Source: Candidatus Lustribacter telmatis
GTDB taxonomy: Bacteria; Vulcanimicrobiota; Vulcanimicrobiia; Vulcanimicrobiales; Vulcanimicrobiaceae
Reading direction: 5' to 3'
Assembly (NCBI GenBank): GCA_003164045.1
Contig: PLRU01000046.1
Span: 1 to 64,000, forward strand
Length of the DNA: 64,000 bases
Shown here piece after piece: positions 18,566-35,696 of the stretch. The notes under the pieces are model-generated. The model had not been told where the DNA came from. It saw only the letters and a program-made list of their open reading frames with translations, and did no database searches. Each line of letters starts with the position of its first letter. Within the stretch, counting starts at the first letter, position 1. Made by a program: the position numbers and the translations under genes.

Positions 18566-21293
18566 TATCGCCGGCGGCATCCGTCGTGATGCTGCGCCCG
18601 TCGAGCACGTTGTGATAGACGGCATCCGGCCGTCCGAGGCTGATGCGTTCGTCGCCGTATGCTAACCGCAGGCCCCCGCGCACGTGCGCGCGGGCGAGGC
18701 GCGGCGCGGCGACGACGAGTTCGTCGCGCGCGAACGCGACCAGCGATGCCGCTCCGGCGCCGGTGATGTCGAGCGCGCGATAGGTTCCGCCCAAGAACGT
18801 CGCTGCGTGCGCGCGCCGCCACTGCAGCATGCGCCAGGTGACGTAGAGCTTGATGCGCCCATCGGGCCAGGCCTCGAGCAATTCGTCAAGCAGCGCGGCG
18901 CGGTCGTCGTCGCGCGCGGCGAATGCGCCGAGCATATCGCGCCGGCGATCGTAGTCGACGGCGCGGCGGTTATCCGGATCGACCAGCGAGAAATCCCACA
19001 GTTCGCAGCCTTGATAGATGTCGGGCACGCCGGGCACGGCGAGTTTCAATGCGACCTGCGCGAGTCCGTGCAGCGCCGCGACCGGCGCGAGTTGCGCCGT
19101 CAACGCACGGACGTCGCGAAAGAACGGCGTCTCGGGCGCCAAGGTGGTGCGCACGAACGCCTCGAGGGCATCTTCGTACCCGGCGTTACGGTCGGTCCAA
19201 CTCGTCCGAAGCTTCGCCTCGCGCGCCGCTTTGAGCGCGTAGGCGACGAGCCGGTCGACATACGCCGCGTGCTCGTCCGCGTCGATCGCTCCATCGCCAA
19301 GCCAGGTCGGCGGCAGCGTGCCGACGACGGTTTGGTAGAACAAGAATTCATCGACCGGGCTCGGCGCGCCGTCGCTCGCGTGCTGGGCTGCGTTCATGCG
19401 CGACCAGCGCGCCACGCCGCGGCTCCATTCGGGTGCAAACTCGGTCAGCGCGGCAATGCGCAAGCGCGTATCCTCGCCGCGTTTGTGATCGTGCGTTGCT
19501 GTCGCGAGCATCGCGTGCGGATGGGTGCGTGCGCGCTCGGCGTTGGCGGCGTGGAATTCGTCGAGCGACCGGCCGAAGCGCGCCGGCTCGCCGCCGACCT
19601 CGTTGAGCGCAACGAGCCGCACGTAGCGGTAGAACGCGGTGTCTTCGAGCGACTTCGCGCTGACGGGACCGGTGTATTGCTGGAAGCGCATCGCGAAGCG
19701 CAGCACTTCGGTTCGGTCGTACGTCGCGCCGGGCCGCGCGATGAGCTGCGCGCTGAGCGCGTCGCGAATGAAATCGAACACGGCGTCGTCGGGGAACTCG
19801 CTGCGGGCGCGGGCGGCGGCGACGGCGGCATCGATCACGCGCTGGTCGTCGGGCTCGATCGCATCGTCGAGGACGTAGGTCCGGTAGACCGGGAACATCG
19901 CGATGACCTCGATCAGCGTGCGCCGCAGGCCGAGGCTGGTGAAGTCGCGCGAACGGCGATCGGAGTGCGCGATGCGAACGAGCCCGTCGATCAGCACGCT
20001 CAGTTCGCTGGCGAGATCGATCCGCATGACGCGGCGCTTCGCCTCGTAGGCTTCGTCCGCGAACGTCGTCATGCGTCCGGTGACGCGCCGGTAGATGCGA
20101 TCGAAGCCACGTTCCGCATCGCGATCGATGAAGATGCCCGCGACGAGGTTCATGAAGTCATAGCCGGTCGTCCCGGCGACGCGCCAGTCCGGCCGTAGCC
20201 GTTCGGCGCCGAGGAGAATCTTCTCGACCACGAGATAGAGCGGCTGCCCGAGTGCGGCGGAGCGGTCGACGAGCAGGTTCGCGTAGCCGCCGGGATTGTA
20301 GAGCCCGTCGATGTGATCGATGCGCAGGCCCTGGATGCGTTCGTCGGCGATCATCGCGAAGACGAGCTCGTGCGTGCGCGCGAGTACCTCAGCATCCTCC
20401 ACGCGCAGACCGGCCAGATCGTTTATGTCGAAGAAGCGCCGGTAGTTGATCTCGTCCGACGAAACGCGCCAGTACGCCAGCCGGTAATGCTGCGCGCCGG
20501 CGAGCGCATCGAGCCGGTCGGGATCGGTGACGAAGGCGGCGCAGCCGTCGGCGAGGGCGCGGGCGAATGCCGGCGCGGCGGCCACGCGATCGGCGAGTTC
20601 GCGCTGCAAGGCCGAAGCGCGATCGCGCATCGCCGTGCGCTTTACCGCTTCGCGCGGCCGCCCGCGCAGCGCTGAGAACGAGGCGCCGAGTTCGCGCAGC
20701 ACGGCCGCAATTTCGGGCGGCGCGTCCTGCGCGGCATACGTCAGCACCAGGCCGTAGGTCGGCGGCGCGAGCGGAAAGAGATGGTCGAAGTAGTGCAGCG
20801 TCAGCGCGTCGGTCGGGGCGTCGAACGTGACGGTGAGCTCGCCGCGTTCGACGACGCTGCCGTAGTGGTCGCCCAGCACCGGCAGCACGACTTTGCCGCG
20901 GCCGATCGAATTCTTGCGCCATTCGATGTCGAAGAAGTGGCTGTACGGCGAGAGCGCGCCCCAGGTGAGGATGTCGTACCACCACGGATTATCGGTGCCG
21001 ATGCCCATGTGGTTGGGCACGAAGTCGACCAGATGCCCCATGCCGCGCGCATGCAGCGCGTCGATCATCGCGCGATGCTCGGCCTCGTCGCCGATCTCGG
21101 GGTTGAAGCGCGTGTGATCGACCACGTCGTAACCGTGCTCGCTGCCGGGCCGCGCGCGAAAATACGGCGAGGCGTAGAGATGCCCGATCCCGAGCGCGTC
21201 GAGATACGGCACGATCCGTTCGCCGTCGGTGAAACGGAAACGCGGACCGAACTGGACGCGGTAGGTCGAGAGCGGAACCGCCTCGATCCTCAC
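18510..21293 (-). CDS. treY: Malto-oligosyltrehalose synthase TreY
   Basis: GH13 enzyme that isomerises the reducing-end alpha-1,4 bond of malto-oligosaccharides to an alpha,alpha-1,1 bond, giving maltooligosyl-trehalose for TreZ. It opens with PLSTYRVQFGPRFRF and has the catalytic regions LVDFVPNHMG, IQGLRIDHIDGLYNPGGY (nucleophile Asp), YLVVEKIL (acid Glu) and TATHDHKRGEDTRLR, and ends with VPDIYQGCELW. GTG 21293 overlaps the treZ stop as GTGA and gives 927 aa; an open frame extends 12 codons further up into treZ but has no homology. It is the last gene of the leftward carotenoid/trehalose run. Confidence 0.94.
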   Translation of the reverse strand: MRIEAVPLSTYRVQFGPRFRFTDGERIVPYLDALGIGHLYASPYFRARPGSEHGYDVVDHTRFNPEIGDEAEHRAMIDALHARGMGHLVDFVPNHMGIGTDNPWWYDILTWGALSPYSHFFDIEWRKNSIGRGKVVLPVLGDHYGSVVERGELTVTFDAPTDALTLHYFDHLFPLAPPTYGLVLTYAAQDAPPEIAAVLRELGASFSALRGRPREAVKRTAMRDRASALQRELADRVAAAPAFARALADGCAAFVTDPDRLDALAGAQHYRLAYWRVSSDEINYRRFFDINDLAGLRVEDAEVLARTHELVFAMIADERIQGLRIDHIDGLYNPGGYANLLVDRSAALGQPLYLVVEKILLGAERLRPDWRVAGTTGYDFMNLVAGIFIDRDAERGFDRIYRRVTGRMTTFADEAYEAKRRVMRIDLASELSVLIDGLVRIAHSDRRSRDFTSLGLRRTLIEVIAMFPVYRTYVLDDAIEPDDQRVIDAAVAAARARSEFPDDAVFDFIRDALSAQLIARPGATYDRTEVLRFAMRFQQYTGPVSAKSLEDTAFYRYVRLVALNEVGGEPARFGRSLDEFHAANAERARTHPHAMLATATHDHKRGEDTRLRIAALTEFAPEWSRGVARWSRMNAAQHASDGAPSPVDEFLFYQTVVGTLPPTWLGDGAIDADEHAAYVDRLVAYALKAAREAKLRTSWTDRNAGYEDALEAFVRTTLAPETPFFRDVRALTAQLAPVAALHGLAQVALKLAVPGVPDIYQGCELWDFSLVDPDNRRAVDYDRRRDMLGAFAARDDDRAALLDELLEAWPDGRIKLYVTWRMLQWRRAHAATFLGGTYRALDITGAGAASLVAFARDELVVAAPRLARAHVRGGLRLAYGDERISLGRPDAVYHNVLDGRSITTDAAGDITASSAFAVAPLAVLAPG

Positions 21294-23062
21294 GTTCGGG
21301 CCCAGCGGACCGCCCAAGCCGGCGCGCATCCGGCGTGATACGTTTCACCGTGCGTTGCGTAGAACGTCTCGCCCGCAAGGCGGTCGGGGAATCCATTCAC
21401 CGCGTCGGGCGAGAGGTTGGCATCGGCGTGCAGCGCGCCGTCGGTAAGTTGCCAGCGCAGCGTTAAGCCGTACGCGCCGATGCGTTCGCAAACGGCGTCG
21501 CTGCCGCGCACGTTCGCGACGAACGGGATGACGTTTTGGGCGCGCGCGCGCAAAAGTGCCGTCGTGAAGGCGAGGGCGGCGGCATGTTGCGGGGCGTCGC
21601 GTTCTTCCCAGCGCAAGCGCGACGCTTGGAACGTCGTCACGGCGGCCGGATCCGGAATCGTCGCACGCACCGCGGCATCGGCGAATTGTGGAAACGCTTC
21701 GAACTCGCGCCGGCGGCCCGCGGTGACGAGCTTCGCGAGGTTCGGTTCGAAATCGCAGAAGAAGAGGAACGGCGTCGATGCCGCCCACTCTTCACCCATG
21801 AAGAGCATCGGCGGTGAGGGGACGAGGAAGATGAGCGCCGCTAGTGCGCGCAGGACTTCGGGTACGGTGAGCTGCCCGAGGCGTTCGCCGAACGCGCGGT
21901 TCCCGATCTGGTCGTGGTTCTGCAGGAACGAAACGAAGGCGGAGAGTGGAAAGCGCGCGCTCGGCAAACCGCGCGGTTTACCACCCCGGTGTTCGGAGGC
22001 CTCGCCTTGATAGGCGAAACCCGTTGCCAGTGCCCGGCCGAGCCGGCCCACGGGATCCTCCGCGTAATCGCGATAGTAGCCCGCGATCTCGCCGGTCGCG
22101 ATCACGTGCGCGCAGTGATGTACGTCGTCGTTCCACTGCGCGTCATAACCAGCGTCGAGCAGCGTTACGTCGTTGAAGTCGTTCTCGACGACGAGCGCAA
22201 CGTGCCGTTCGCGCTCGCACGCCGCCAGCGCCGTGGCGCGCACTTCGCTGAGAAATGACGGCGTCTTCGGGTCGACGATCGCGTGCGTTGCGTCCAAGCG
22301 CAGGCCGTCGAACCGGTAAACGCTTAGCCAGTAGGCCGCGTTCTCGGCAAAGTATGCGCGAACGTCGGGAACCGTCACGTCGATCGCAGCGCCCCACGGC
22401 GTATGCCCTGCCTCGTTGAAGAACGCCGGCGCGATGCCGTGCAGATAGTTGCCTTCAGGCCCGAAGTGGTTGTAGACGACGTCGAGCAGAACCGCCATGC
22501 CGTGCGCGTGCGCGGCGGCGATGAAGCGCTTGAGATCGTCGGGCCGGCCGTAGCCCGCGTACGGTGCGTACGGAAGCACGCCGTCGTAGCCCCAATTGCG
22601 CGCGCCGGGAAACGCGGCGATCGGCATCAGTTCGATCGCGGTTACGCCGAGGCCGGCGAGATCGCGCAGTTTGTGCACCGCCGCGTCGTAGGTGCCGTCG
22701 AATGTAAACGTGCCGACGTGCAGTTCGTAGATCACGTGTTCGTGCCACGGCCGGCCGTGCCAATCGTCGTTCGGCCAGGCGAAGTGCGGAACGATGATTT
22801 CGCTAGCTTCGTGCACGCCGTCGGGCTGAAAACGCGATCCGGGATCGGGAATCGGCCGGCCGCCGTCGGCGGAAAACGCATAGCGCGAGCCGGCATGGGC
22901 CTTCGGATCGTCCACGGCAAACCAGTCACCGCTGCGCTCCATCGCAAGGGTCCGGCCGTCGATGAGCGCGTCCACGGCTTTGGCCGCCGGTGCATAGAGG
23001 CGCAAACGAAAACCGTGCTCGAGCGCGAGCGGCCCGAACCGGCCGGTGTAGGCGAGCGTCAT
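21290..23062 (-). CDS. treZ: Malto-oligosyltrehalose trehalohydrolase TreZ
   Basis: GH13 enzyme releasing trehalose from the product of TreY. The N-terminal beta domain (FGPLALEHGFRLRLYAP) is followed by the barrel: ELHVGTFT, IELMPIAAFPGARNWGYDG, LLDVVYNHFGPEGNY, FDGLRLDATHAI (nucleophile Asp), LVVENDF (acid Glu) and FLQNHDQIGNRAFG. The C-terminal part contains PPMLFMGEEWAAST. 590 aa is normal. ATG 23062 overlaps the upstream stop by ATGA; the stop overlaps the treY GTG. Confidence 0.95.
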   Translation of the reverse strand: MTLAYTGRFGPLALEHGFRLRLYAPAAKAVDALIDGRTLAMERSGDWFAVDDPKAHAGSRYAFSADGGRPIPDPGSRFQPDGVHEASEIIVPHFAWPNDDWHGRPWHEHVIYELHVGTFTFDGTYDAAVHKLRDLAGLGVTAIELMPIAAFPGARNWGYDGVLPYAPYAGYGRPDDLKRFIAAAHAHGMAVLLDVVYNHFGPEGNYLHGIAPAFFNEAGHTPWGAAIDVTVPDVRAYFAENAAYWLSVYRFDGLRLDATHAIVDPKTPSFLSEVRATALAACERERHVALVVENDFNDVTLLDAGYDAQWNDDVHHCAHVIATGEIAGYYRDYAEDPVGRLGRALATGFAYQGEASEHRGGKPRGLPSARFPLSAFVSFLQNHDQIGNRAFGERLGQLTVPEVLRALAALIFLVPSPPMLFMGEEWAASTPFLFFCDFEPNLAKLVTAGRRREFEAFPQFADAAVRATIPDPAAVTTFQASRLRWEERDAPQHAAALAFTTALLRARAQNVIPFVANVRGSDAVCERIGAYGLTLRWQLTDGALHADANLSPDAVNGFPDRLAGETFYATHGETYHAGCAPAWAVRWART

Positions 23063-26000
23063 GACGATGCGGCAACCTCGGAGCGTTCGAAGATGCGGGT
23101 GAATTCCGCATACAGATCGCGCATCCGCTCCGGCCGCGCGTGGGCTTGGTAGACGATCGCTTCGAGCGTGGCGCGCACGAGAAAAATATCGACAAGTCCG
23201 CGCACGTTCTCGCGCTCGTAGGGCGTGCCGAGCTCGCGAGCATGCTCGAGATAGCTGCGGGCAAACGTCGTGGCCGCTGCCCGCACGAGCGGCTGCAGCG
23301 CGGGCGCGACTCCGGCGGCATCGACCGTCGGATCGGTCGCCACGTCGAACGCAGCGGCGGCCGCCACTTCATCGAGCGAGCGGATCATCGTCGCAACGTC
23401 GGCAAACGGCGACGTGCGCCGGCGCCGCTGCGTTGCCGGCCGGGCCGCTTCGCCGACGCCCGGATCGATGATGAGCACGTCGCTTTCGGTGGCGAGGACG
23501 CGCCCGAGATGGAAGTCACCGTGAACGCGCATCGCGAGTGCGCCCACGAGCGGAGCATCGGCGATAAATCGCTCGATCTGCGCGCGCAGTGCGAGCGCGG
23601 CCAGTGCCTCGGGGCTGCGATCGCGCGAGATTTGAGCGAAGCCGCGCTCGGCCAGATCGCGCAACTCGCTCTGCAGCGTCGCGGCGTCCTCCGCCGTAAA
23701 TGCACGTGGCGCAAAGTCGGGATGATCGGAGCGCGCGAGCAGCGCGTGCATGTCGGCCAATCGCCGGCCCGCAAGTCCGAGGATACGATCGATCGGCGTG
23801 GCATCATCGGCCGCGACTTGGAGCGAGCGCATGAACATCTTATGCAAAACGTCCCAGCCGCTGCCTTGCGCCAGAATGTAGCGGCGCGCAAGTCCGACGC
23901 CGACCTCGCCGCCGCCGGTCGCGCGGTAGGTGAACGTTCCGAGCAGCGGAGCCGTGTGCGTGAAGTTCGCATCGTGCAGAAAGCGTGCCAGCTCGATTGC
24001 CGGATTCGTTCCGCGCACCGTGCGGCGATAGAGCGTGAGCAGCACCGTTTCGCCGATGACCGCGGAGAGCCGCCGGTCGCCGGATTGCGGGCGGCGCAGG
24101 TTGTTCTCATCGGCGATTGCGAGCGACTGCAAACTCCACGTTGGTTCGCAGTACAGCGCACCGCCGGCGCCCGCGAACAACGTGTTGTTGCGGACGGCAT
24201 CGAAGAGTCCGCGCCAGAGGCGATCGTCGATGCCGGCGTCGAGCAGGAGCCCTTCGCGCGGCCCGGTCCGCGTTTTTGCGAACGCGGCGCGCAGCATCGG
24301 CAGCGGCCACTCGCCGTCGGCGTGCGCGAGTTCGAGCGGTAAGATCAGGGCCTCGTCGTTGGTTGAGACGCCGAGGATCGCCAACGCCGGCGATTCGTCG
24401 CCCGTACCGAGCGGGACGATATCGTTCAGCGCAATCGGCGTGGGCTGGAGTCCCGGCGCGAGCAGTTGACGCACGGAGAGGACGGACGGCAGCACATCGC
24501 GCTCGAGGGTCGAACGTGCCGGCTCGCTCAAGAGGCTCGCGCGTCCGCGCGGCAATACGACCGTGATGAATTCCGGCGGTTGCGGCGTCGCCGCTTCGGG
24601 TGCTACCGGCGCGTCGGTTGCCGCCGCAAGCACGAACCAGAAAAACGCGTGGCCGTGCAGCGTGATGACGTAGCGGTCGTCGACGATCGGCGGAAACGCA
24701 CTCCAGCCGATCATTTCGACGGGCGTCCTTCCGCTGAAGCGCGAGAGGTCGAGCGAGACGGCTTGCGAGGTGCGCGCCATATTCGCCACGCAGAGCACGA
24801 CCTCGCCTTCGAAATCGCGCACGTAGGCCGCGATGTGGCGATTGTCGGGATGTAAGAACGTGATGCTGCCGCGACCGAATACGCGGTGCGCCTGGCGCAC
24901 GCCGATGACGCGGCGCATCCACTGCAGCAACGACGACGTACTGCGTTCTTGGGCCTCGGCGTTGGTCGAGGCGTAGCCGTACACCGGATCCATGATCGGC
25001 GGCAAAAACAGCCGCTGCGTATCGGCGCGCGAGAAACCGCCGTTGCGATCGGCCGACCATTGCATCGGCGTGCGCACGCCGTCGCGGTCGCCGAGATAGA
25101 TGTTGTCGCCCATCCCGATCTCGTCGCCGTAATAGATGATCGGCGTTCCCGGCATCGAGAGCAGCAGGCTCGTCATCAGTTCGATCTTGCGCCGGTCGTT
25201 CTCCATCAGCGGTGCGAGCCGGCGCCGGATGCCGACGTTCACGCGCGCTCGCGTTTCTCGCGCGTAAACGCTGTACATGAACGCGCGTTCGCGGTCGGTA
25301 ACCATTTCCAGCGTCAGCTCGTCGTGGTTGCGCAAGAAGATCGCCCACTGACAGTTGGCCGGAATCTGCGGCGTTTGGCGCATGATGTCGTAGAGCGGGT
25401 AGCGGTCTTCCTCGGCGATCGACATGAACATGCGCGGCATCAGCGGGAAGTGGAACGCCATCTGACACTCATCGCCGTCGCCGAAATACGCGTTGACGTC
25501 TTCGGGCCACTGGTTCGCTTCGGCGAGCAGCAGACGATCGGGGAATTCCGCATCGAGAATCGCGCGCAAGCGCTTGAGGATGTCGTGCGTTTCGGGCAGG
25601 TTCTCGCTCGTCGTGCCTTCACGTTCGCAGAGATACGGCACGGCGTCGAGGCGCATGCCGTCGATGCCCATCGCGAACCAGAAGCGCATCACGTCGGCGA
25701 TCGCGTCGAACACCGGCGGATGATCGAAGTTCAGGTCCGGCTGGTGGCTGAAGAAGCGGTGCCAGCAATATTGTCCGGCGACCGGATCCCAGGCCCAATT
25801 CGAGGTTTCCGTGTCGGTGAAGATGATCCGCGTGCCGGCATACGTTTCGGGTGAATCGCTCCACACGTAAAACTTGCGGTAGAACGAATCGCGCGGTGCG
25901 TGGCGCGCCCGTTGAAACCACGGATGCTGGTCGGAGGTGTGGTTGACCACGAGTTCGGTGATGATCCGCAAACCGAGTTTGTGCGCGGCCCGGATGAACG

Positions 26001-26259
26001 TGCGCACGTCGCGCAGCGTGCCGTATGAGGGATGCACGCCCTTGTACTCGGCGATGTCGTAGCCGTCATCGCGTAGCGGCGAGGGATAGAACGGCAAGAG
26101 CCAGATCGCGGTCGCGCCCAGCTCTTTGATGTAGGGCAGCTTCTCGATCAGGCCGGCGAAATCACCGATGCCGTCGCCATTGCCGTCGGCGTATGCCTTG
26201 ACGTGCAATTGATAGATGACGGCGTCCTTATACCAGAGAGACGGCTGCGTGAGCTCCAC
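23059..26259 (-). CDS. treS: Trehalose synthase-maltokinase fusion (TreS-Mak)
   Basis: 1066 aa bifunctional protein. Residues 1-550 are TreS, which interconverts maltose and trehalose: WYKDAVIYQLHVKAYADGNG, then the catalytic Asp in GIDGMRLDAVPYL, Glu in LLLAEANQWPEDV and LRNHDELT. Residues 570-1066 are a maltokinase (Pep2/Mak) that makes maltose-1-phosphate; the kinase loop is VHGDFHLGRVL (912-922). The following Mg-binding motif reads IIDPGVGEAARP (Asp932) where Mak proteins usually have IDFEGEP, so kinase activity should be tested. TreS-Mak usually feeds GlgE; no glgE is in this window. ATG 26259 is close to the WYKDAV homology. Confidence 0.93.
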   Translation of the reverse strand: MELTQPSLWYKDAVIYQLHVKAYADGNGDGIGDFAGLIEKLPYIKELGATAIWLLPFYPSPLRDDGYDIAEYKGVHPSYGTLRDVRTFIRAAHKLGLRIITELVVNHTSDQHPWFQRARHAPRDSFYRKFYVWSDSPETYAGTRIIFTDTETSNWAWDPVAGQYCWHRFFSHQPDLNFDHPPVFDAIADVMRFWFAMGIDGMRLDAVPYLCEREGTTSENLPETHDILKRLRAILDAEFPDRLLLAEANQWPEDVNAYFGDGDECQMAFHFPLMPRMFMSIAEEDRYPLYDIMRQTPQIPANCQWAIFLRNHDELTLEMVTDRERAFMYSVYARETRARVNVGIRRRLAPLMENDRRKIELMTSLLLSMPGTPIIYYGDEIGMGDNIYLGDRDGVRTPMQWSADRNGGFSRADTQRLFLPPIMDPVYGYASTNAEAQERSTSSLLQWMRRVIGVRQAHRVFGRGSITFLHPDNRHIAAYVRDFEGEVVLCVANMARTSQAVSLDLSRFSGRTPVEMIGWSAFPPIVDDRYVITLHGHAFFWFVLAAATDAPVAPEAATPQPPEFITVVLPRGRASLLSEPARSTLERDVLPSVLSVRQLLAPGLQPTPIALNDIVPLGTGDESPALAILGVSTNDEALILPLELAHADGEWPLPMLRAAFAKTRTGPREGLLLDAGIDDRLWRGLFDAVRNNTLFAGAGGALYCEPTWSLQSLAIADENNLRRPQSGDRRLSAVIGETVLLTLYRRTVRGTNPAIELARFLHDANFTHTAPLLGTFTYRATGGGEVGVGLARRYILAQGSGWDVLHKMFMRSLQVAADDATPIDRILGLAGRRLADMHALLARSDHPDFAPRAFTAEDAATLQSELRDLAERGFAQISRDRSPEALAALALRAQIERFIADAPLVGALAMRVHGDFHLGRVLATESDVLIIDPGVGEAARPATQRRRRTSPFADVATMIRSLDEVAAAAAFDVATDPTVDAAGVAPALQPLVRAAATTFARSYLEHARELGTPYERENVRGLVDIFLVRATLEAIVYQAHARPERMRDLYAEFTRIFERSEVAASS

Positions 26260-26291
26260 CAGGGGCTATCGTACCCCGGCGAGCCGCATTT

Positions 26292-26954
26292 CTACCCGGG
26301 TGCGACCGTCCGGGCTGCAGCGGCGCGGCGAGCGCGGGTGTAGAGGACCGTCCACGCCAGGATGCTGCCGATGGCGACGACGGAGATGACGGGCGAAGCG
26401 GCTGTAGCCATGGCGATCGGCAGTATCATCGCGATGACGACGCGCGCCCCCGCCTCGATCAAGAGCCCGGCACCCCAAACCAGCGTGATCAGGCGAAACG
26501 CTCTCCGCGCGGCGGGTCGTTCCCACAGCGCTTCGCTCGCCGCGCGCGCCGCCGGGTCGGCGCCGGCGAGGTCGAGGTTGAGGCGGTAGATCAAGGGCCG
26601 CGGCGTTGCCAGCGAACCGAGGAACAGCAAGCCGAACACGCACGTGAACAGCGAGTCTTTGAGCAGCGCGAAAATGGCGTTGCCGGTGGCGAACGAGAGC
26701 CCGAAGCCGGTGACGATACCGATCAGCGACACGATCGCGATGATGCCGACACGTTTGGTCTTCACCGCTTCGTACACCATCTCACCGAGCGGAAACACCG
26801 TTGCAACGGCGAGGGCGATCAGCGGCGAGACGCCGTGGCGCAGCAATACCTGAATCGCGATCAGCGGGAGGACGAGACTGACGCCGAGCGTGCGGTACAA
26901 ACCGCTGAAACGCGTCGGGCCCGGCGGTTTAGCTGCGGGTGGCATCAGCGGCAA
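26292..26954 (-). CDS. Multi-pass membrane protein (VC0807-like)
   Basis: 220 aa with about five hydrophobic spans (for example LGVSLVLPLIAIQVLL, PLIALAVATVFPLG, VGIIAIVSLIGIVTGFGLSF and LITLVWGAGLLIEAGARV). The layout and the LFTCVFGLLFLGSL/RPLIY region resemble VC0807-family proteins (septation-protein-A-like), whose function is unknown. The start at 26954 overlaps the carotenoid oxygenase 3' end by 26 nt; a second ATG at 26945 is also possible. It sits 32 nt before treS, linking the oxygenase to the trehalose genes in one run. Confidence 0.65.
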   Translation of the reverse strand: MPLMPPAAKPPGPTRFSGLYRTLGVSLVLPLIAIQVLLRHGVSPLIALAVATVFPLGEMVYEAVKTKRVGIIAIVSLIGIVTGFGLSFATGNAIFALLKDSLFTCVFGLLFLGSLATPRPLIYRLNLDLAGADPAARAASEALWERPAARRAFRLITLVWGAGLLIEAGARVVIAMILPIAMATAASPVISVVAIGSILAWTVLYTRARRAAAARTVAPG

Positions 26955-28248
26955 TCCAGTTGCCGTGAAAGCCCAGCGGAACGCGTGCCGGCAGCGGGAC
27001 GACGGCGACGGGGGGTTTGGTGATATCGCTCGCGTCGAGCACGACGAAGCTGCTGCGGTCGAGCGCTGCGTCGTAGACGTAGCACATCAGCCAGCCCGCA
27101 TCTTCGCCCGTCCCCGCAGGGACGAACACCGCTTCGCCGGGCACGCAGCCGGCGCCGAACGAATGTTCCGTCGATGTGCCGTCGGCGAGATCGTGTTTGC
27201 GCAGCTCGCGCGCGCCTTCGCCGGTAGCGCTAACCGCGACGGTATAGCCGTAGCGATGGCGGCTGCCGGTCAGCCGCTCGTCGATGCGCGGAAACTCGCT
27301 CGAACGCTCGTCGAGCGTCGCTTCGCTCACGCGACCGGCCGCGAGGTCGATCGTGAAACGGTGCAGCGTCGTCGGCGAGAACGAGTCGTTCCCATTGCGC
27401 CAGAGTTCCTTGTAGCGGACGACGTCCATCACGATCTGCTCGCCGTCTTCGAACGCGTTGAACACGTGGAAGACATAGCAGGGCTCGATGTCGAGCCAGC
27501 GCACGGCCGCCGCCGGGTTCGCGCGATCGACGATGCCGAGCCGTGCGCCGTAGCGATCGCTCCACTTGTACGGGAACTTGCCGCGCAGACCGAGCATCGT
27601 ATCGAACACCACCGGCAAGTCCATAAAGATCGCGTACCGTTCGGTAAGCGCGAAGTCGTGCATCATCGTCACGCCGCGGACGGGAATGTTCCGGCTTTCG
27701 AGCAGCGTTCCGCCGGCGTCGATCCGATGATAGGAAAGCGCACCCGGCCGTAGTTGCATGCCGAACCCGTGAAGTTCGCCGGTGCGCGGGTCGGTCTTGG
27801 GATGAGCCGAGAACGGCGCCTTCAAGCGGCCGTCAAAATCGTAGACGCCGGTCGTGGCGAGATCGCGCGTGACTTCGGTCGGGAACGACGATTCGACGAG
27901 CGCCAGCAGACGATTGCCGTGCGCGATGATGTTCGTGTTGGCCGATCCGACGCTAAGGTCGAGCGTGCCGTTCATCCGGATGTAGGGCGCATGGTCGACG
28001 AACTGCCGCGTGCGCACCCAGCGATTACGGTAGGCCGTCGCGCGGCCGTTCGCGAGGCGCACGCCGTGCAGCATGCCGTCGCCCATGAACAGGTGACCGG
28101 GCTTGGAGCCCGGCTGAGGATTGGGCCCGTTCCGGATATAGTCGCCGCAAAGTTCGGGCGGCAACGCGCCTTCGACCGGAAGATCGAACGCCTCGATCTC
28201 AGCGCTGACGGGGGTCGCGTAGGCGGCGGCTGCAACGGCTGATCCCAT
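26929..28248 (-). CDS. Carotenoid oxygenase (RPE65/CCD family)
   Basis: Iron(II) dioxygenase family cleaving carotenoid or stilbene double bonds. The propeller-centre histidines can be seen in AHPKTDP, MMHDFALTERYAIF, YVFHVFNAFEDG and LGFHGNWI. It begins PPELCGDYIRNGPNPQPG with LFMGDGMLHGVRL, as in the family. 439 aa is a little short (usual 450-500) but all four iron ligands are present. ATG 28248 is preceded by AAAGG at 6 nt spacing; the longer open frame upstream crosses the PadR operators and is rejected. Transcribed away from padR, so probably repressed by it. Confidence 0.92.
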   Translation of the reverse strand: MGSAVAAAAYATPVSAEIEAFDLPVEGALPPELCGDYIRNGPNPQPGSKPGHLFMGDGMLHGVRLANGRATAYRNRWVRTRQFVDHAPYIRMNGTLDLSVGSANTNIIAHGNRLLALVESSFPTEVTRDLATTGVYDFDGRLKAPFSAHPKTDPRTGELHGFGMQLRPGALSYHRIDAGGTLLESRNIPVRGVTMMHDFALTERYAIFMDLPVVFDTMLGLRGKFPYKWSDRYGARLGIVDRANPAAAVRWLDIEPCYVFHVFNAFEDGEQIVMDVVRYKELWRNGNDSFSPTTLHRFTIDLAAGRVSEATLDERSSEFPRIDERLTGSRHRYGYTVAVSATGEGARELRKHDLADGTSTEHSFGAGCVPGEAVFVPAGTGEDAGWLMCYVYDAALDRSSFVVLDASDITKPPVAVVPLPARVPLGFHGNWIAADATRS

Positions 28249-28294
28249 GGCTAACCTTTCGTACGGTGGCGCGATGTGATATGTTTTGCGGAAT

Positions 28295-28324
28295 GTGTAA
28301 GATATTACATGTAAGAAATTACAT
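28295..28324. promoter_or_regulatory. Two overlapping PadR-type operators
   Basis: Palindrome 1 (28295-28310) is GTGT-N8-ACAT with core TGTAA-GATA-TTACA. Palindrome 2 (28309-28324) is ATGT-N8-ACAT, a perfect ATGTAA-GAAA-TTACAT. ATGT-N8-ACAT is the established consensus bound by PadR regulators. The pair sits 12-42 nt before the padR ATG and 46-76 nt before the carotenoid oxygenase ATG, so it can control both directions. Confidence 0.8.
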
Positions 28325-28336
28325 GTCAAGCCTTTC

Positions 28337-28873
28337 ATGACGAAAGTCAGCGTACTCGGGAACATCCTTTTGGGGCTGCTCGGGAGCGGCGGGCGCACGG
28401 GCTACGAGCTGACCCGCGACTTCGATGTAAGCCTGGCCAACGTCTGGGCGGCGAGCCACAGCCAGATTTATCCGGAGCTGGCGAAGCTGGAGGGCGCGGG
28501 CTTGATCCGCAAGACCGAAGCCGGCCCGCGCGGGAGCCAGCGGTACGCCATCACCCCTGCCGGCAACGACGCGCTGCGGCATTGGCTTGCCGAGACGCAG
28601 CCGGTTGACAACCCCCGGGCGGAATGGATGGTCCGCGTGTTTTTCCTCGGCACCCTCGCTCCGAACCAAGCTGCAACCTACCTCGAAGGCCAGCAAAAGT
28701 ACCATGCTGACAAGGTGGCGCGCTACCGGGCATTCGCCGAGCACTGCGCGGTCGACGACCCGGACTCGCGCTGGGACCGGATCGCGCTCGAGGCCGGGAT
28801 GCGCTTTGAAGCGGCGATGGCTGATTGGGCCGCCTGGGCGATCGGCGAACTGCAACGAACCCCTAAGGCTTGA
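28337..28873 (+). CDS. PadR-family transcriptional regulator
   Basis: 178 aa. N-terminal winged helix (VLGNILLGLLGSGGRTGYELTR, then HSQIYPELAKLEGAGLIRK and YAITPAGNDALRHWL), with a C-terminal helical dimerisation domain from residue 90 (Vir_act_alpha_C type). PadR proteins usually repress their own gene and a divergent neighbour and are released by phenolics or other small ligands. The tandem palindromes just upstream fit autoregulation. Its TGA overlaps the uvrC ATG. The effector is unknown; control of carotenoid cleavage suggests an apocarotenoid or aromatic signal (inference). Confidence 0.92.
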   Translation: MTKVSVLGNILLGLLGSGGRTGYELTRDFDVSLANVWAASHSQIYPELAKLEGAGLIRKTEAGPRGSQRYAITPAGNDALRHWLAETQPVDNPRAEWMVRVFFLGTLAPNQAATYLEGQQKYHADKVARYRAFAEHCAVDDPDSRWDRIALEAGMRFEAAMADWAAWAIGELQRTPKA

Positions 28874-30888
28874 TGGAGTCGACCCTCGAGCGGACGCTGG
28901 CCCAGCTTCCCGACGCGCCCGGCGTCTATATGATGATCGGGGACGACGGGCAGATTTTGTACATCGGCAAGGCCGTCTCGCTGCGCAGCCGCGTGCGCTC
29001 CTACTTTCAGGATAGCGCCGCGCACGCATACCGCACCGTGAAGATGGTGGAGCGCGTCGTCGACGTGCGTACGATCGTCGTCTCGAACGAGATCGAATCG
29101 CTGATCCTCGAAGCGAACCTCATCAAGCGCCACCAGCCCGCGTTCAACGTGCGGCTGCGCGACGACAAGCGTTTTCCGTACTTGAAGGTGACCAACGAGC
29201 CGTTCCCGCGCGTCGTGTTCACCCGCGTCGTGCGCGACGACGGCGCGCGGTACTTTGGGCCGTACACCAACGCGCACGGATTGCGCGAACTGATCGACCT
29301 CGTGCGCATCGTGTTTCCGTTACGCACGTGCCGCGAACCGATCGACGGTAAGCGCAAGCGGCCGTGCCTGCAGTATCATATCAAACGCTGTCTCGCGCCG
29401 TGCGTGGGGTATCAGTCGGAGCCGGACTACGACGTGCTCGTCGATGAGGTCGTGCTGTTTCTCGAAGGCCATCACGACGCGCTGATCGCGCGCTTGCAAA
29501 ACGACATGACCGATGCGGCCGAACACTACAACTTCGAGGCGGCGGCGCGGCTGCGCGACCGGATCATCGCGGTCCGGCGCACGATCGAAGCGCAGAAGGT
29601 CGTGTGGCGTTCGCGCGTCGACATGGATTTGATCGCGGTGGCGCGCGAGCGCGGCCAGGCGTGCATGCAAGTCTTTATGGTGCGCAACGGCAAGCTGCTC
29701 GGTCAGGAACACTTCATCCTCGACGGCACGGTCGATGCGACCGAGGCCGAGCTGTTCTCCGAATTCCTCAAGCAGTTTTACACCGCGCGCAGCGGGCAAC
29801 TCGGGCTCGACGCGTCGATGGCGAGCGACATCGCGGGCAGTCCGCTCGCGTTGCGCGCGGCGCGCGACCAGCAGTCGCCGGTCGCCGAGAAAGAACGCTC
29901 GCGCCGGCGCAATAGCGGCGCCGAGGCGATCCCGAAAGAGATCCTCGTGCAGGCGCATCCCGACGACGGCTCGGTAATCGAAATGTGGCTGACCGAGGCG
30001 AAGGGTCAGCGCGTGCGCATCCTGCGCCCGGAGCGCGGCGAGCGCGCCGATTACCTGCGCCTGGTGCAGAAGAACGCCGAGCAAAACCTCAAGAATTTTC
30101 TCGCGCATCAGGAAGCGCAGGAAACCGCCTCGGCGACCGCACTGACCGAACTCGCGGCGGCCCTCGATTTGCCCGAGCCGCCGCATCGCATCGAGTGCTA
30201 CGACATCTCGAACATTCAAGGCACGAACGCGGTGAGTTCGATGGTCGTGTTCGTCGAAGGCCGGGCCAAGAAGAGCGACTATCGCCACTTCAAGATTCAG
30301 TACGATAAGGGGCCCAACGATTTTGCGATGATGCAGGAGACGTTACGGCGGCGGCTGCGCTATTTGCGCGCCGATGCCGATCGCCCGCCGGTGGCCGACG
30401 GCGACGCGGCCGGGGCAGCGATCGAAGCGCAGGCGCGCAAGCGCGATCGTTTCCACGAGAAACCGGATCTCTTGCTCATCGACGGCGGCAAAGGGCAACT
30501 CAGCGCCGTCGTCGAGGTGATCCGGGAAATGGATATGATCGGCATTCCGGTTGCGGGCTTGGCGAAGGAGAACGAGTGGCTCTTCGTTCCGGGAAATCCT
30601 GAACCGATCGCGCTGCCGCCGAATTCCGCCGGACTGCACCTCGTGATGCGCGTGCGCGATGAAGCGCACCGATTCGCCATCACCTATCATCGCAACCGGC
30701 GCGACAAAGCGATGACGAAGTCGGTGCTCGATACGCTGACCGGCGTCGGCCCGGTACGGCGCAAACGGTTGCTGACGGTGTTCGGTTCGGTCAACGCGAT
30801 CAAGCGCGCGAGCGTCGATGAGATCGCGGCGGTGAAGGGCATGAGCCCGGCGCTCGCATCGCACGTGAAGGCGGCGCTCAGTGGCTGA
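28873..30888 (+). CDS. uvrC: Excinuclease ABC subunit C
   Basis: Dual-incision nuclease of nucleotide excision repair, acting with UvrA/UvrB (not in window). Domain order is complete: GIY-YIG nuclease (PGVYMMIGDDGQILYIGKA), Cys-rich hinge (KRPCLQYHIKRCLAPCVGY), UVR/UvrB-binding motif (YNFEAAARLRDRIIAVRR), RNase H-like nuclease (HRIECYDISNIQGTNAVSSM) and C-terminal helix-hairpin-helix pair (LTGVGPVRRKRLL, VKGMSPALASHV). ATG 28873 shares its A with the padR stop; 671 aa. Position behind padR suggests co-transcription from the padR promoter. Confidence 0.95.
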   Translation: MESTLERTLAQLPDAPGVYMMIGDDGQILYIGKAVSLRSRVRSYFQDSAAHAYRTVKMVERVVDVRTIVVSNEIESLILEANLIKRHQPAFNVRLRDDKRFPYLKVTNEPFPRVVFTRVVRDDGARYFGPYTNAHGLRELIDLVRIVFPLRTCREPIDGKRKRPCLQYHIKRCLAPCVGYQSEPDYDVLVDEVVLFLEGHHDALIARLQNDMTDAAEHYNFEAAARLRDRIIAVRRTIEAQKVVWRSRVDMDLIAVARERGQACMQVFMVRNGKLLGQEHFILDGTVDATEAELFSEFLKQFYTARSGQLGLDASMASDIAGSPLALRAARDQQSPVAEKERSRRRNSGAEAIPKEILVQAHPDDGSVIEMWLTEAKGQRVRILRPERGERADYLRLVQKNAEQNLKNFLAHQEAQETASATALTELAAALDLPEPPHRIECYDISNIQGTNAVSSMVVFVEGRAKKSDYRHFKIQYDKGPNDFAMMQETLRRRLRYLRADADRPPVADGDAAGAAIEAQARKRDRFHEKPDLLLIDGGKGQLSAVVEVIREMDMIGIPVAGLAKENEWLFVPGNPEPIALPPNSAGLHLVMRVRDEAHRFAITYHRNRRDKAMTKSVLDTLTGVGPVRRKRLLTVFGSVNAIKRASVDEIAAVKGMSPALASHVKAALSG

Positions 30889-31945
30889 CCCGTTCGTTTT
30901 CGCGAAGCCGTTCTTGCACATGCTCGATCCCGAGCGCGCGCACGAACTCACGCTGCGCGCGCTCGAAGCAAACCTCGTGCCGGCGCAACCGCAGGTCGAC
31001 GAACCGAGCATCGCGATCGACCTGTTCGGCCGCCGGCTCCACGGTCCGGTGGGCTTGGCCGCCGGCTTCGATAAGAATGCCCGCGTGTTCCGGCGGATGT
31101 ACGCGCAGGGTTTCAGCTTTGTGGAAATCGGCGGCGTGACGCCGCGTCCGCAGCGCGGCAATCCGCGCCCGCGCGTCTTTCGCCTGCCGGAAGACGGCGC
31201 GATCATCAACAACATGGGCTTTCCCAACGACGGCGCCGAGGCGGTCGTGCGGCGGCTCGGCGGCGAACGGCCGGCCGGAATGCTCGGCATCAACCTCGCG
31301 AGCAACGGCGACAGTGCCGACCCGGCCGAAGATTTTGCCGGGCTCGTGCAGCGCTTCTCCAATTATGCCGACTACCTAACGCTCGACATTTCGTGCCCGA
31401 ACAGCGCCAACGGTAAAGTGTTTCTCGAACCGGCGCGGCTGCGCGATCTGATGGCGCGGCTCGGTGCGCTCGATCGCGGACCCGTGCCGCCCAAGCTCGT
31501 CGCGAAGCTCTCGCCCGACATCGACGATGCGCTGCTCGGCCAACTCATCGAGGTGCTGCTCGAGGCGAAGATCGACGGCATCATCGTCGCCAATACGACG
31601 ATCGAGCGGCCGGAAACGCTGCGCGGGAACGCCTCGATGCGCGGCGGCCTGAGCGGCCGGCCGTTATTCGCGCGCTCCACCGCGATGCTCGCGCAGGTGG
31701 CGCACCTCACGGGCGGCGCCGTGCCGCTGATCGGCGTTGGGGGAATCGCAAGCGGACCCCAAGCGTATGAGAAGATTCGCGCCGGCGCGACCGCCGTGCA
31801 GCTCTACACCGGTCTGATCTATGGCGGCACGGCCCTGGTGACGCGCATCAAGCGGGAGCTGGCGGTCTTGCTCATGCGCGACGGATATGGCACCCTAAGC
31901 GAGGCCGTCGGCACGGCGCGCTCTGCGCGGAAAGTGAGCCCATAA
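30881..31945 (+). CDS. pyrD: Dihydroorotate dehydrogenase (quinone), class 2
   Basis: Membrane-associated FMN enzyme oxidising dihydroorotate to orotate with quinone as acceptor. The N-terminal helix FVFAKPFLHMLDPERAHELTLRAL is the class-2 membrane-tunnel element. FMN and substrate motifs: VGLAAGFDKNA, FVEIGGVTPRPQ, INNMGFPN, LDISCPNSANGK (with the class-2 Ser region), VANTTI, LSGRPLF and LIGVGGIASG. 354 aa. GTG 30881 lies inside the uvrC end (8 nt overlap), and its stop overlaps the next ATG (TAATG). Confidence 0.95.
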   Translation: MADPFVFAKPFLHMLDPERAHELTLRALEANLVPAQPQVDEPSIAIDLFGRRLHGPVGLAAGFDKNARVFRRMYAQGFSFVEIGGVTPRPQRGNPRPRVFRLPEDGAIINNMGFPNDGAEAVVRRLGGERPAGMLGINLASNGDSADPAEDFAGLVQRFSNYADYLTLDISCPNSANGKVFLEPARLRDLMARLGALDRGPVPPKLVAKLSPDIDDALLGQLIEVLLEAKIDGIIVANTTIERPETLRGNASMRGGLSGRPLFARSTAMLAQVAHLTGGAVPLIGVGGIASGPQAYEKIRAGATAVQLYTGLIYGGTALVTRIKRELAVLLMRDGYGTLSEAVGTARSARKVSP

Positions 31946-32301
31946 TGCATTTCCTCATTCGAGTGATCGTCAACGCCATCGCCCTGATGATCGTGGCGTA
32001 CTTCCTGCCGGGTGTGAGCGTGACGGGATTCGTCGGCGCGCTCATCGCCGCGTTCGTGCTCGGCATCGTCAACGCGATCTTGCGTCCGATCCTCATTCTG
32101 CTCACGTTGCCGATCCAAATCGTCACGCTCGGGCTGTTCACATTCGTAATCAATGGTGTTCTCTTTTGGTGGGTCGGTCAGTGGAATCTCGGGCTCGTCG
32201 TCAATGGATTCTGGCCGGCGTTCTGGGGCGCGATCGTGCTCGGCATCGTGTCGTTCGTGCTGTCATCGCTGCTGCGAGGCGCCGATCCGGAAACTGCCTA
32301 G
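31945..32301 (+). CDS. Small four-TM membrane protein (phage-holin family 4 / PF04020-like)
   Basis: 118 aa, four hydrophobic spans with the typical pattern FLIRVIVNAIALMIVAYFLPG, VLGIVNAILRPILILLTLP, VTLGLFTFVINGVLFW and FWGAIVLGIVSFVLSSLL. This is the common bacterial family annotated as mycobacterial 4-TMS phage holin. It is found in many chromosomes without prophage, and its function is unknown. The name should not be read as evidence for a phage here. Coupled to pyrD by a 1 nt overlap and 3 nt before surE. Confidence 0.8.
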   Translation: MHFLIRVIVNAIALMIVAYFLPGVSVTGFVGALIAAFVLGIVNAILRPILILLTLPIQIVTLGLFTFVINGVLFWWVGQWNLGLVVNGFWPAFWGAIVLGIVSFVLSSLLRGADPETA

Positions 32302-32304
32302 CTC

Positions 32305-33072
32305 ATGGTCCGCATCCTCGTCGTAAACGATGACGGCATCGCTTCCGAGGGGATCGCGGTGCTGGCGCGAGCGCTGCAACCGCTAGGCGAGGTGACGGTC
32401 GTTGCGCCCGATGGCGATCGCAGCGGGACGAGCCATTCCATCTCCGTGCACTCGGCCGTGCGCGCGCAGGCGATGCCGGAGGCCGGCTTGCGTCGCTTCG
32501 CGTGTTCGGGCACGCCCGCCGATTGCGTGCTGCTCGGCGTGAACGAACTCTGCGGCGGGCGGCCCGACATCGTGCTCAGCGGGATCAACCGCGGCGCGAA
32601 TCTCGCCGACGACGTGAACTATTCGGGCACGGTTGCCGCAGCGGTCGAAGCGACGATCGTGGGCGTTCCGGCGATCGCGGTTTCGCTCGCGTCGTCGTGG
32701 CCGAAGCAAGATCCGGTGCACTATTGGGATGTCGCCGCAAGCGTCGCGCGGCGGCTGGCGACCGAGGTGTTGCGCGAGCCGTTGCCGCCCGGCACGTATT
32801 GGAACGTGAACGTGCCCAACGTCGCCGAACTGCGCGGCATCCGCTTCACGCGGCTGGGACGCAAGCAGTACGCGGACCGGTTGGCACGTGAGGACGACGG
32901 CGGCGCGGGCGCGGCGTACTACTGGGTTTGGGATATGTCGCATCTCGGCGGCGGCGACGACACCGATACGGTAGCGGTCGATGGAGGCTACGCAAGCGTG
33001 ACGCCGCTGCAGATCGATCGGACCGACGAGGCGACGCTGCGGCGCTATGCCGCGCGCACGCTGCCGGCCTGA
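32305..33072 (+). CDS. surE: 5'/3'-nucleotidase SurE
   Basis: Metal-dependent nucleoside-monophosphate phosphatase linked to stationary-phase survival. The metal ligands are present: DD in ILVVNDDGIASEGI, Ser in DRSGTSHSIS, and Asn in SGINRGANLADDVNYSGTVAAA. The second half contains VNVPN and the R-D rich tail. 255 aa is normal. ATG 32305 follows the holin-like gene after 3 nt. This is the end of the tightly packed padR-led chain; 37 nt separate it from the next gene. Confidence 0.94.
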   Translation: MVRILVVNDDGIASEGIAVLARALQPLGEVTVVAPDGDRSGTSHSISVHSAVRAQAMPEAGLRRFACSGTPADCVLLGVNELCGGRPDIVLSGINRGANLADDVNYSGTVAAAVEATIVGVPAIAVSLASSWPKQDPVHYWDVAASVARRLATEVLREPLPPGTYWNVNVPNVAELRGIRFTRLGRKQYADRLAREDDGGAGAAYYWVWDMSHLGGGDDTDTVAVDGGYASVTPLQIDRTDEATLRRYAARTLPA

Positions 33073-33109
33073 CGCAACCCGGACCTCTTCGTTTACGTTC
33101 ATTCCGAAC

Positions 33110-34090
33110 ATGCGCGCAGCAACGTTCACCCACACCGGACCGGCCCGCGACGTACTTCACGTCGGTGAGATGCCGACACCCGAACCCGGACTGGGCGAGG
33201 TGCGGGTGAAGCTCGCGACGTCGGGCGTGAACCCCTCCGACGTCAAGCGCCGCGGCGCGGCGCCGCCGGGCAAGCCGGCGGAATTTCCCGTGGTGATCCC
33301 GCACAGCGACGGCGCCGGGACGATCGACGCGGTCGGTTCGGGCGTGCCGGCCAAGCGCATCGGCGAGCGCGTGTGGACCGTGAACGCGCAATTCAAGCGC
33401 GCGTTCGGTACGGCGGCGGAATACTGCGTACTGCCGAGTGCGTTTGCCGTTCATCTGCCCGACAACATCGACTTTTCCGTCGGCGCGTGTCTCGGCATCC
33501 CGGCATTGACGGCGTATCACGCGATCATGCTCGACGGATCGGTGCGCGGCAAGACGTTGCTCGTGCAGGGCGGCGCGGGAGCGGTCGGCGCGTACGCGAT
33601 CCAGTTCGCGAAGCTCGACGGCGCGACGGTGATTACCACGGTCAGTTCGGATGAGAAGGCGGAACGCGCGCGTGCGGTGGGCGCAGATCACGTGATCAAC
33701 TACCGCACGGAGGAAGTAAAGGCGCGGGTCGCAGAGATCACCGGTGGCAAGAAAGTGGACCGCGTGATCGAGGTCGATCTGAAAGCCAATGCGATGACGT
33801 ACCCCGATGTGCTGGCCGAACACGGTAAGGCCGTGATCTACGGTTCGGGTGCGCCGCCGATTCCGATTCCGTCGTTCATTCCCTGGAGCACGACGCTGCA
33901 GTTCATTCTCGTATACACGCTCAGCGACTATCAGCGCGAAAGCCACGTCGGCGCACTCGACCGGCTGCTGACCGCCGGAAAACTGCAGCACGCGCTGGGC
34001 GAACATTTTCCGCTCGACCGTATTGTCGAAGCGCACGAACGGGTGGAAGCCGGTAGTCTCGGCAACGTGATCGTCGACGTTTCGAAGTAG
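33110..34090 (+). CDS. NADPH:quinone oxidoreductase-type alcohol dehydrogenase
   Basis: 326 aa medium-chain dehydrogenase/reductase of the zeta-crystallin type. The GroES-like half runs from MRAATFTHTG to about residue 120; the Rossmann half has LLVQGGAGAVGAYAIQFAK for NADPH. The Zn-binding cysteines of true alcohol dehydrogenases are absent, so it should reduce quinones or enones. In-frame codons upstream of ATG 33110 overlap surE and are rejected. It precedes the transporter genes by 1 nt, but a metabolic link is not evident. Confidence 0.87.
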   Translation: MRAATFTHTGPARDVLHVGEMPTPEPGLGEVRVKLATSGVNPSDVKRRGAAPPGKPAEFPVVIPHSDGAGTIDAVGSGVPAKRIGERVWTVNAQFKRAFGTAAEYCVLPSAFAVHLPDNIDFSVGACLGIPALTAYHAIMLDGSVRGKTLLVQGGAGAVGAYAIQFAKLDGATVITTVSSDEKAERARAVGADHVINYRTEEVKARVAEITGGKKVDRVIEVDLKANAMTYPDVLAEHGKAVIYGSGAPPIPIPSFIPWSTTLQFILVYTLSDYQRESHVGALDRLLTAGKLQHALGEHFPLDRIVEAHERVEAGSLGNVIVDVSK

Positions 34091-34091
34091 C

Positions 34092-35696
34092 ATGCGCGCA
34101 GCCGGTTCGCTGGAGCGTCTTTTTACGTGTGCGCTGATTGCGCTCGCGTTAGACGGGTGCGCGGCCGGTGCCGGCGCGCAACGTGATCCCGGCACGATCG
34201 TTTCGCTCACGCGCGTCGATGGCGCAACGATGAATCCGATGTTCGGGCAGACCGTCCAAGACGGCATCGTTTACCCGCAGATCATCTTCGAGTCTCTGAG
34301 CTACATCGGCGCCGATTATCTTCCGCATCCGCGTTTGGCGACGTCGTGGACACATTCGGCCGACGGGTTACAGTGGACGGTCGACCTACGGCACGGCGTG
34401 CGCTGGTCCGACGGCGCGCCGTTCACGTCGAAGGACGTCGTCTTCACCTACGACGCGTTAATCGATCCGCAGACCGCTTCGATTAACGCCGGCGATATGG
34501 TGTACATCAAGCGGGTAACTGGCGATGGCCCCTTCCGCGTCCACTTCACGCTCGCGTATCCGAGCGCCGTGTTCACGCTCGTCGGGATGGGTTTCGAAGC
34601 GAGCATATTGCCCGAGCATATCCTCGGCCGCGTTCCTCATGACCGGTTGCGCTTTAGCGCCTTTGGCGAACATCCCGTCGGCACTGGGCCCTACCGTCTG
34701 CTCCGGTGGCAGCACGATAGCGAAACGATCTTCGTCCCGAACCCCTACGCATGGCGGAAACCCCACATCGCGCGCTTCGATGTGCGCACGATCTTCAACG
34801 ATCAGGCGCAAACCGACGCCATGGCCAACGGTTCGGCCGACCTCGTCGACGATACCGGTTCGACCGTCTATCAACAACTCGAGCGCATCGCGCCGAAGGT
34901 CAAGCTGTTGACCTTCCCGTCGGTCTACATCGATGTGACCCTGCCGAACACGCGCCGCCCCGGTCTCGATGATGTCATCGTGCGACGCGCAATGATGTAC
35001 GGAAATAATCGCCAGGCGCTCATTTCAGGGTTTTTCCAGGATAAGGTGCCGTTGCCCGATGGGTTGGTTCCGGTTGGGCTCACGCACTGGCACAACGGCC
35101 ACGTGGCACAGTATCCGTACGATCCGGTTAAAGCGCGGGCGATGCTCGATGCCGACGGTTGGCGCGTGGGGCCTGACGGCGTTCGCCGGCGCGGCAACGC
35201 GCGACTCGCATTCGAACTCTTGATCAATCAGGGCTCGGCCATCTTGACCGATGCAGACCTTGAGTTTACCGCCGACATGAAGGCGATCGGCATCGAAGTC
35301 GCACTGCGCGAGATGGATTTCCCATCGATGGTTGCGCGCGAGTTCAAGGGCGACTTCGATCTCATCTCCGAAGGCTTTGGCGGTTCGGTCGACCCGGACA
35401 TGACGGCGAACCTTGCGACGTCGTCGATCCCGCCCGCCGGCCAGAATACCGGCGCTTTCCACGATCCGGTGCTCGATCGTCTGATGAAAGCTGGTCTCAC
35501 GGAACTCGACGACGGGAAACGGCGCGCCATCTATAACGAGATGCAGCGAGAGATCGCTGATAAGGTGCCGATGCTCTACCAATGGACCCGGTTCGCCGGC
35601 ACCGCGTATTCCGCGCACCTCGTGCTCGATCCGAAAACGACGCTCCAGCAACCGCTGCTGTACTACAACATCGAAGACTGGAAGACGGCGCAATGA
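34092..35696 (+). CDS. Peptide/nickel-type ABC substrate-binding lipoprotein
   Basis: SBP_bac_5 family solute receptor. The leader LERLFTCALIALALDGC ends in a lipobox Cys (LDGC, residue 23), so it should be membrane-anchored outside the inner membrane. Characteristic segments: IIFESLSYIGADYLPHPRLATSW, WTVDLRHGVRWSDGAPFTSKDVVFTYD, PVGTGPYRLLRW, and LLINQGSAILTDADLEFTADMKAIGIEV. 534 aa. The ligand (oligopeptide or other) cannot be told. The stop overlaps the permease start by ATGA. Confidence 0.9.
   Translation: MRAAGSLERLFTCALIALALDGCAAGAGAQRDPGTIVSLTRVDGATMNPMFGQTVQDGIVYPQIIFESLSYIGADYLPHPRLATSWTHSADGLQWTVDLRHGVRWSDGAPFTSKDVVFTYDALIDPQTASINAGDMVYIKRVTGDGPFRVHFTLAYPSAVFTLVGMGFEASILPEHILGRVPHDRLRFSAFGEHPVGTGPYRLLRWQHDSETIFVPNPYAWRKPHIARFDVRTIFNDQAQTDAMANGSADLVDDTGSTVYQQLERIAPKVKLLTFPSVYIDVTLPNTRRPGLDDVIVRRAMMYGNNRQALISGFFQDKVPLPDGLVPVGLTHWHNGHVAQYPYDPVKARAMLDADGWRVGPDGVRRRGNARLAFELLINQGSAILTDADLEFTADMKAIGIEVALREMDFPSMVAREFKGDFDLISEGFGGSVDPDMTANLATSSIPPAGQNTGAFHDPVLDRLMKAGLTELDDGKRRAIYNEMQREIADKVPMLYQWTRFAGTAYSAHLVLDPKTTLQQPLLYYNIEDWKTAQ

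Follow-up and report, generated by a model that had tools for sequence, protein, structure and literature searches.

Putative tandem PadR operators between padR and a carotenoid oxygenase gene in Candidatus Lustribacter telmatis

The 64,000-nucleotide stretch of DNA analysed here, referred to below as the window, contains two divergent gene runs separated, between the ATG of padR (28337) and that of a carotenoid oxygenase gene (28248), by 88 bp (Table 1). The leftward run, oxygenase-VC0807-treS-treZ-treY, is co-directional with neighbours that overlap or lie within about 32 bp of each other, and in the rightward run padR and uvrC are followed by pyrD (DHO_dh), a gene for a 4-TM phage-holin-IV-like membrane protein and surE (SurE). 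Profile matches uphold the gene calls of a preliminary description of this DNA (carotenoid oxygenase, trehalose genes, PadR, UvrC, pyrD, membrane protein and SurE), and the overlap of padR with uvrC that it reported is indeed there, as a single shared base. Missing from its gene list was the gene at 26292-26954, which overlaps the end of the oxygenase gene and sits between it and treS. Its product, being above the curated cut-off of NF041646, belongs with the VC0807 family. The name 'VC0807' had no match in the open literature searched, and no link in print between that family and a carotenoid oxygenase was found there.

Table 1. Genes and predicted regulatory features on either side of, and within, the padR/oxygenase gap (window coordinates)
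Feature	Position	Strand	Remarks
treY	18510-21329	-	TIGR02401, 928 bits; overlaps treZ
treZ	21290-23062	-	TIGR02402, 642 bits; 4-bp overlap with treS
treS, with maltokinase-like C-terminal part	23059-26259	-	TIGR02456, 901 bits
VC0807-family membrane protein	26292-26954	-	NF041646, 149.5 bits, cut-off 65
RPE65-family carotenoid oxygenase	26929-28248	-	404.6 bits; first in leftward run
Operator site 1 (putative)	28295-28310		GTGTAAGATATTACAT = GTGTAA-GATA-TTACAT; arms 5/6
-10 element TAATAT, predicted oxygenase promoter	28302-28307	-	within site 1
Operator site 2 (putative)	28309-28324		ATGTAAGAAATTACAT = ATGTAA-GAAA-TTACAT; perfect arms, 6/6
Degenerate third unit	28323-28338		ATGTCAAGCCTTTCAT; 2 mismatches, same 14-bp phase as sites 1 and 2
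-35 element TTGACA, predicted oxygenase promoter	28324-28329	-	overlapped by sites 2 and 3
padR	28337-28873	+	subfamily-1 type: winged helix and Vir_act_alpha_C; presumed repressor
uvrC	28873-30888	+	ATG 28873-28875 overlaps padR stop 28871-28873 by one base (TGATG)

The gap, visibly richer in AT than the window (64% GC), holds two putative operator sites that have the AT at 28309-28310 in common. They had been described as two ATGT-N8-ACAT-type palindromes that share 2 bp within 88 bp between divergent genes; the place, the overlap and the gap stand, but the strict pattern, with N8 exactly, fits site 2 alone, as site 1 begins GTGT and so departs from it by one change. The bare ATGT-N8-ACAT motif is by itself poor evidence, since of its 2 matches in the window (0.31 expected) one is here, and 4 of 100 shuffles also reach 2. 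For RTGTAANNNNTTACAY the 2 matches in the 64-kb window compare with 0 in 100 shuffles, and when the genome-wide palindrome search called for in the preliminary description was run, sites 1 and 2 were the only matches in 4.99 Mb (0 for the reversed control pattern), i.e., the pattern is unique to this gap. Allowing up to 2 mismatches gives 21 places in the whole genome (reversed control, 10), among which there is no second close pair; the exact pattern has no further site near uvrC or anywhere else in the 4.99 Mb. A 14-bp tandem repeat spanning 28296-28326 coincides with sites 1 and 2, and the degenerate third unit extends into the padR start codon. No Rfam RNA elements were found within 25000-36000. 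There is also another palindrome family, of GTGTAAGYRCTTGCAT type, with members at L027 1501-1516 (G000:C14:90730), G001:C151:26737 and G029:C198:25121 and 25165. The L027 member, which has GCAAGTNNNTACTTGCA nearby, precedes an ORF and then an apparent TetR regulator gene, and sites of this type are likely to be another local operator, not PadR's.

What would occupancy of the gap do? Scanning of 28150-29050 identified a sole sigma-70-like promoter, TTGACA-16-TAATAT (10/12 matches with a 16-bp spacer; 0.2 expected in shuffles), and it is oriented to the oxygenase gene, not to padR-uvrC. Because its predicted -35 and -10 elements are both under the palindromes, a bound PadR dimer would block the oxygenase promoter, of which treS is a possible downstream read-through target. 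In the padR direction no clear promoter was found in the same scan, so it is geometry alone that suggests autoregulation of padR.

The 178-aa PadR protein has an N-terminal PadR winged helix (PF03551; 48 bits, cut-off 27) and a Vir_act_alpha_C domain (57.5 bits, cut-off 22.4). The solved structures closest to it are AphA 1yg2 and the 5x11 group (1.6e-17, the best PDB match), the latter of which we take to be Bacillus subtilis PadR. Subfamily PadR-s1 is defined by a large multi-helix C-terminal domain, and an ATGT/ACAT inverted motif has been described for the operators of both PadR-s1 and PadR-s2 (PMC3506622). The window protein has such a C-terminal domain, in keeping with the total of about 180 aa for PadR-s1, and the putative sites have the inverted ATGT/ACAT arrangement close to the regulator's own gene, their N8 spacer agreeing with the 8-10 or so of PadR-s1 operators.

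Comparison within the genus involves one genome (G001, contig C5), and it is the only close relative that carries both the PadR protein and the sites. Its oxygenase/padR gap is likewise divergent, at 89 bp, with GTGTCAGATATTACAT as site 1, ATGTAAAAGATTACAT as site 2, ATGTCAAGCCTTaCAg as the third unit and identical TTGACA-16-TAATAT letters, and the order oxygenase-VC0807-first part of treS is as in the window. The operator block is identical at 38/42 positions versus 28/39 in the remaining gap, while the coding DNA of padR and of the oxygenase gene is 76% and 74% identical, respectively. The module proteins of window and congener are 65-69% identical, and the flanks are closer (90-95% for the first 300 residues of TreS, 95% for the N-terminal part of UvrC). 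The congener's VC0807 gene is apparently split over two overlapping matches (L039 10925-11407), a possible frameshift. In its treS (L039 12752-14982) identity of >90% drops to about 22% after roughly residue 400; contig C40 carries the matching remainder, and the terminal part of contig C5 may therefore be a chimera.

How far does this arrangement extend beyond the genus? Scanning of the genome collection with both PadR proteins, those of window and congener, gave 24 loci in Actinomycetota at 39-48% identity, with Kribbella, Streptosporangium, Nonomuraea, Streptomyces, Actinoallomurus and others represented. Divergent to padR in 22 of the 24 is a gene for a membrane protein of about 185-200 aa, and in five (L113, L118, L125, L129 and L135) an oxygenase gene comes after it; the other 19 loci are without an oxygenase. 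Against the VC0807 NCBIfam model the actinobacterial membrane protein is at E 9e-9 with 35 bits, below the cut-off (65), and its profile comparison with the window's membrane protein gives 94% probability (E 1.2e-7, 95 columns). The window oxygenase is 50-54% identical to the actinobacterial ones versus 40-43% to the nearest elsewhere in its own family (G015). In a protein tree it forms a well-supported pair with the congener's, within the region that contains the actinobacterial oxygenases; support for the join to that region is only moderate (84/83), and G015 falls there too. Upstream of padR in 22 of 23 actinobacterial regions is the core GACATGTC; at L113-L135 there are two or three such ACATGT-like cores before padR, usually two, 29 bp apart, and the paired cores mirror the TACATGTA centre at the overlap of window sites 1 and 2. 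Window and actinobacterial sites have in common the ACATGT core and the layout of overlapping half-sites, but their outer arms differ. A matrix of the actinobacterial sites puts the window site in second place among the positions of the window owing to the ACATGT core alone, and when that core was masked the window site was not found with it. The actinobacterial upstream cores are a good set from which to define a PadR operator model. In the phylum sample padR adjoins an oxygenase gene in 5 of the 12 oxygenase-bearing genomes. A remote padR, divergent to another oxygenase type, is present in three further genera (G017, G029 and G076), where the PadR proteins are 60-63% identical mutually and 25-32% to the window's, and at the remote PadR loci of three other genera (L086 8282-8887, L087 8827-9372 and L092 7765-8499) repeated GTGGAATGTC/CTGTCAAG-like units surround the padR start. 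The open literature searched yielded no paper that connects PadR with carotenoid oxygenases and no description of the cross-phylum partnership of padR, oxygenase and VC0807-type protein, which is no proof of novelty.

Judged from sequence, the palindromes are very probably operators of the adjacent PadR. The sites, their uniqueness, the promoter-like overlap, their retention by the congener and the repeated pairing of padR with an oxygenase gene are present in the DNA itself; PadR binding, repression, autoregulation and a ligand are what we infer. The reading that we prefer, and consider probable, is of a local, autoregulated PadR-s1 repressor acting through tandem operators on a carotenoid-oxygenase/VC0807 module, with uvrC as no selected target. 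Two PadR dimers, perhaps three, would occupy the 14-bp-phased sites, masking both elements of the leftward promoter (-35 and -10) and extending as far as the padR start. PadR would so repress the oxygenase/VC0807 transcript, with treS-treZ-treY behind it in the window genus, where the trehalose genes may share a transcript with the oxygenase module, and would also repress its own gene. PadR would be released by a small ligand, plausibly one akin to a compound that the oxygenase consumes or yields. Could the palindromes instead bind a different regulator, with padR a mere neighbour? TTACATGTAA-like palindromes may also suit other winged-helix regulators. However, such a regulator is unlikely, as the palindromes have the arm pair published for PadR-type operators (PMC3506622), ACATGT-centred sites accompany padR orthologues before differing downstream genes, and the absence of further genomic copies agrees with a local regulator whose gene adjoins its sites.

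The preliminary description went further, proposing a stress switch in which PadR co-ordinates the trehalose/oxygenase genes and uvrC, and so joins solute protection to excision repair. For the first half, the tight co-directional run that the oxygenase and VC0807 genes form with the tre genes makes trehalose co-regulation anatomically possible. For the second, the TGATG overlap makes read-through and translational coupling from padR into uvrC likely here. However, the overlapped promoter faces the oxygenase gene and there is no operator near uvrC. In the congener padR overlaps not uvrC but argG (TAATG), and uvrC, whose protein is 95% identical to the window's, has its start some 8 kb from padR, past opposite-strand genes: between argG and uvrC are an opposite-strand periplasmic-binding-protein gene and genes for a cupin protein, a Rieske oxygenase and a Gfo/Idh-type oxidoreductase. 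With those opposite-strand genes and that distance, padR and uvrC cannot share a transcript there. The congener segment L039 1032-8948 (Gfo/Idh, Rieske, cupin, periplasmic binding protein, argG) is a variable spot upstream of uvrC. Among 16 further genomes, of other genera, none has padR before uvrC in the neighbourhoods compared, and the usual gene upstream of uvrC there encodes a small membrane protein, which from its sequence we read as DedA-like. The fetched DNA of the 24 actinobacterial loci has no uvrC or treS match, and uvrC is present in 40 of 41 genomes, with close padR and oxygenase relatives in two genomes only. As neither the congener nor the other genera have padR at uvrC, the adjacency is specific to the window's lineage, and uvrC appears to be an incidental neighbour in an unconserved juxtaposition, with no role as a selected target. 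Any effect on it would be read-through from padR, in the window species only. Excision repair thus drops out of the proposed joint control, the switch as a whole is distinctly unlikely, and the claimed tie to DNA repair should be dropped.

To what might the local repressor respond? The oxygenase alignment has the four iron-ligand His of the RPE65 family (149, 197, 261 and 428) invariant. The nearest NCBIfam model is that for 8'-apo-carotenoid 13,14-cleaving dioxygenase (NF052295), to which the window oxygenase aligns almost end to end, yet with 418 bits and a cut-off of 675 it is no equivalog by that model. Phytoene-synthase-like and phytoene-desaturase-like genes, each below its NCBIfam cut-off, are side by side in the genome, so the organism may make carotenoids. 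An apocarotenoid-like ligand for PadR is a guess. Phenolic acids are the signal for known PadR-s1 members in Bacillus and lactic acid bacteria, and the congener's Rieske oxygenase gene between padR and uvrC has a weak LigXa-like C-terminal match. Might PadR then respond to phenolics, the oxygenase being a lignostilbene-type dioxygenase (LSD) that yields phenolic aldehydes? In LSDs the 4-hydroxyl is held by Tyr-101 and Lys-134 (PMC8191317). However, the window oxygenase and those PadR-linked relatives that are of its type have Val in place of this Lys, an alignment gap lies at the Tyr so that no Tyr of the window oxygenase aligns there, and the LSD model gives 223 bits where the apocarotenoid model gives 418. 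The genome's second RPE65 gene (contig C76, L089 1437-3392) is in contrast of LSD type, at 617 bits, and keeps the key Lys (ALKED) with a Tyr in the region. That gene adjoins an apparent MarR regulator gene, and a few kb from it lies a gene for a Rieske-type oxygenase. A lignostilbene-type substrate for the window oxygenase is, on these residues and scores, disfavoured, and a phenolic response of PadR very improbable. That the palindromes are chance products of a gap more AT-rich than the window is hardly credible, given two matches here, no others in shuffles or in the rest of the 5-Mb genome, and conservation in the congener that exceeds that of the flanking coding DNA.

A wider version of the preferred reading can be put forward tentatively. 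PadR, carotenoid oxygenase and VC0807-type protein might be a conserved regulatory module of Eremiobacterota and Actinomycetota. Its PadR would sense an apocarotenoid, either the compound cleaved by the oxygenase or one that results, and so derepress the enzyme and its membrane partner, the trehalose operon having been recruited in one genus. If true, it would amount to a bacterial sensor dedicated to apocarotenoids.

A local autoregulated PadR repressor is a well-known kind of switch. What is added here is the PadR-carotenoid oxygenase-membrane protein partnership recurring across two phyla, which offers a concrete ligand class and a possible handle on the function of the VC0807 family. LmrR, with ATGT/ACAT half-sites in its own promoter region and in that of its target (PMC3506622), resembles the window protein in belonging to the PadR family and in its half-sites, but it is a small member of PadR-s2 with one C-terminal helix, whereas the window protein is larger and has the Vir_act_alpha_C domain. 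The PadR-family regulator of the 5x11 group has in common with the window protein the two-domain architecture, ATGT/ACAT operators and a gene adjoining its target. The differences from it are that the predicted target here is an RPE65-family oxygenase, not phenolic acid decarboxylase, and that there are 2-3 overlapping sites in 14-bp phase.
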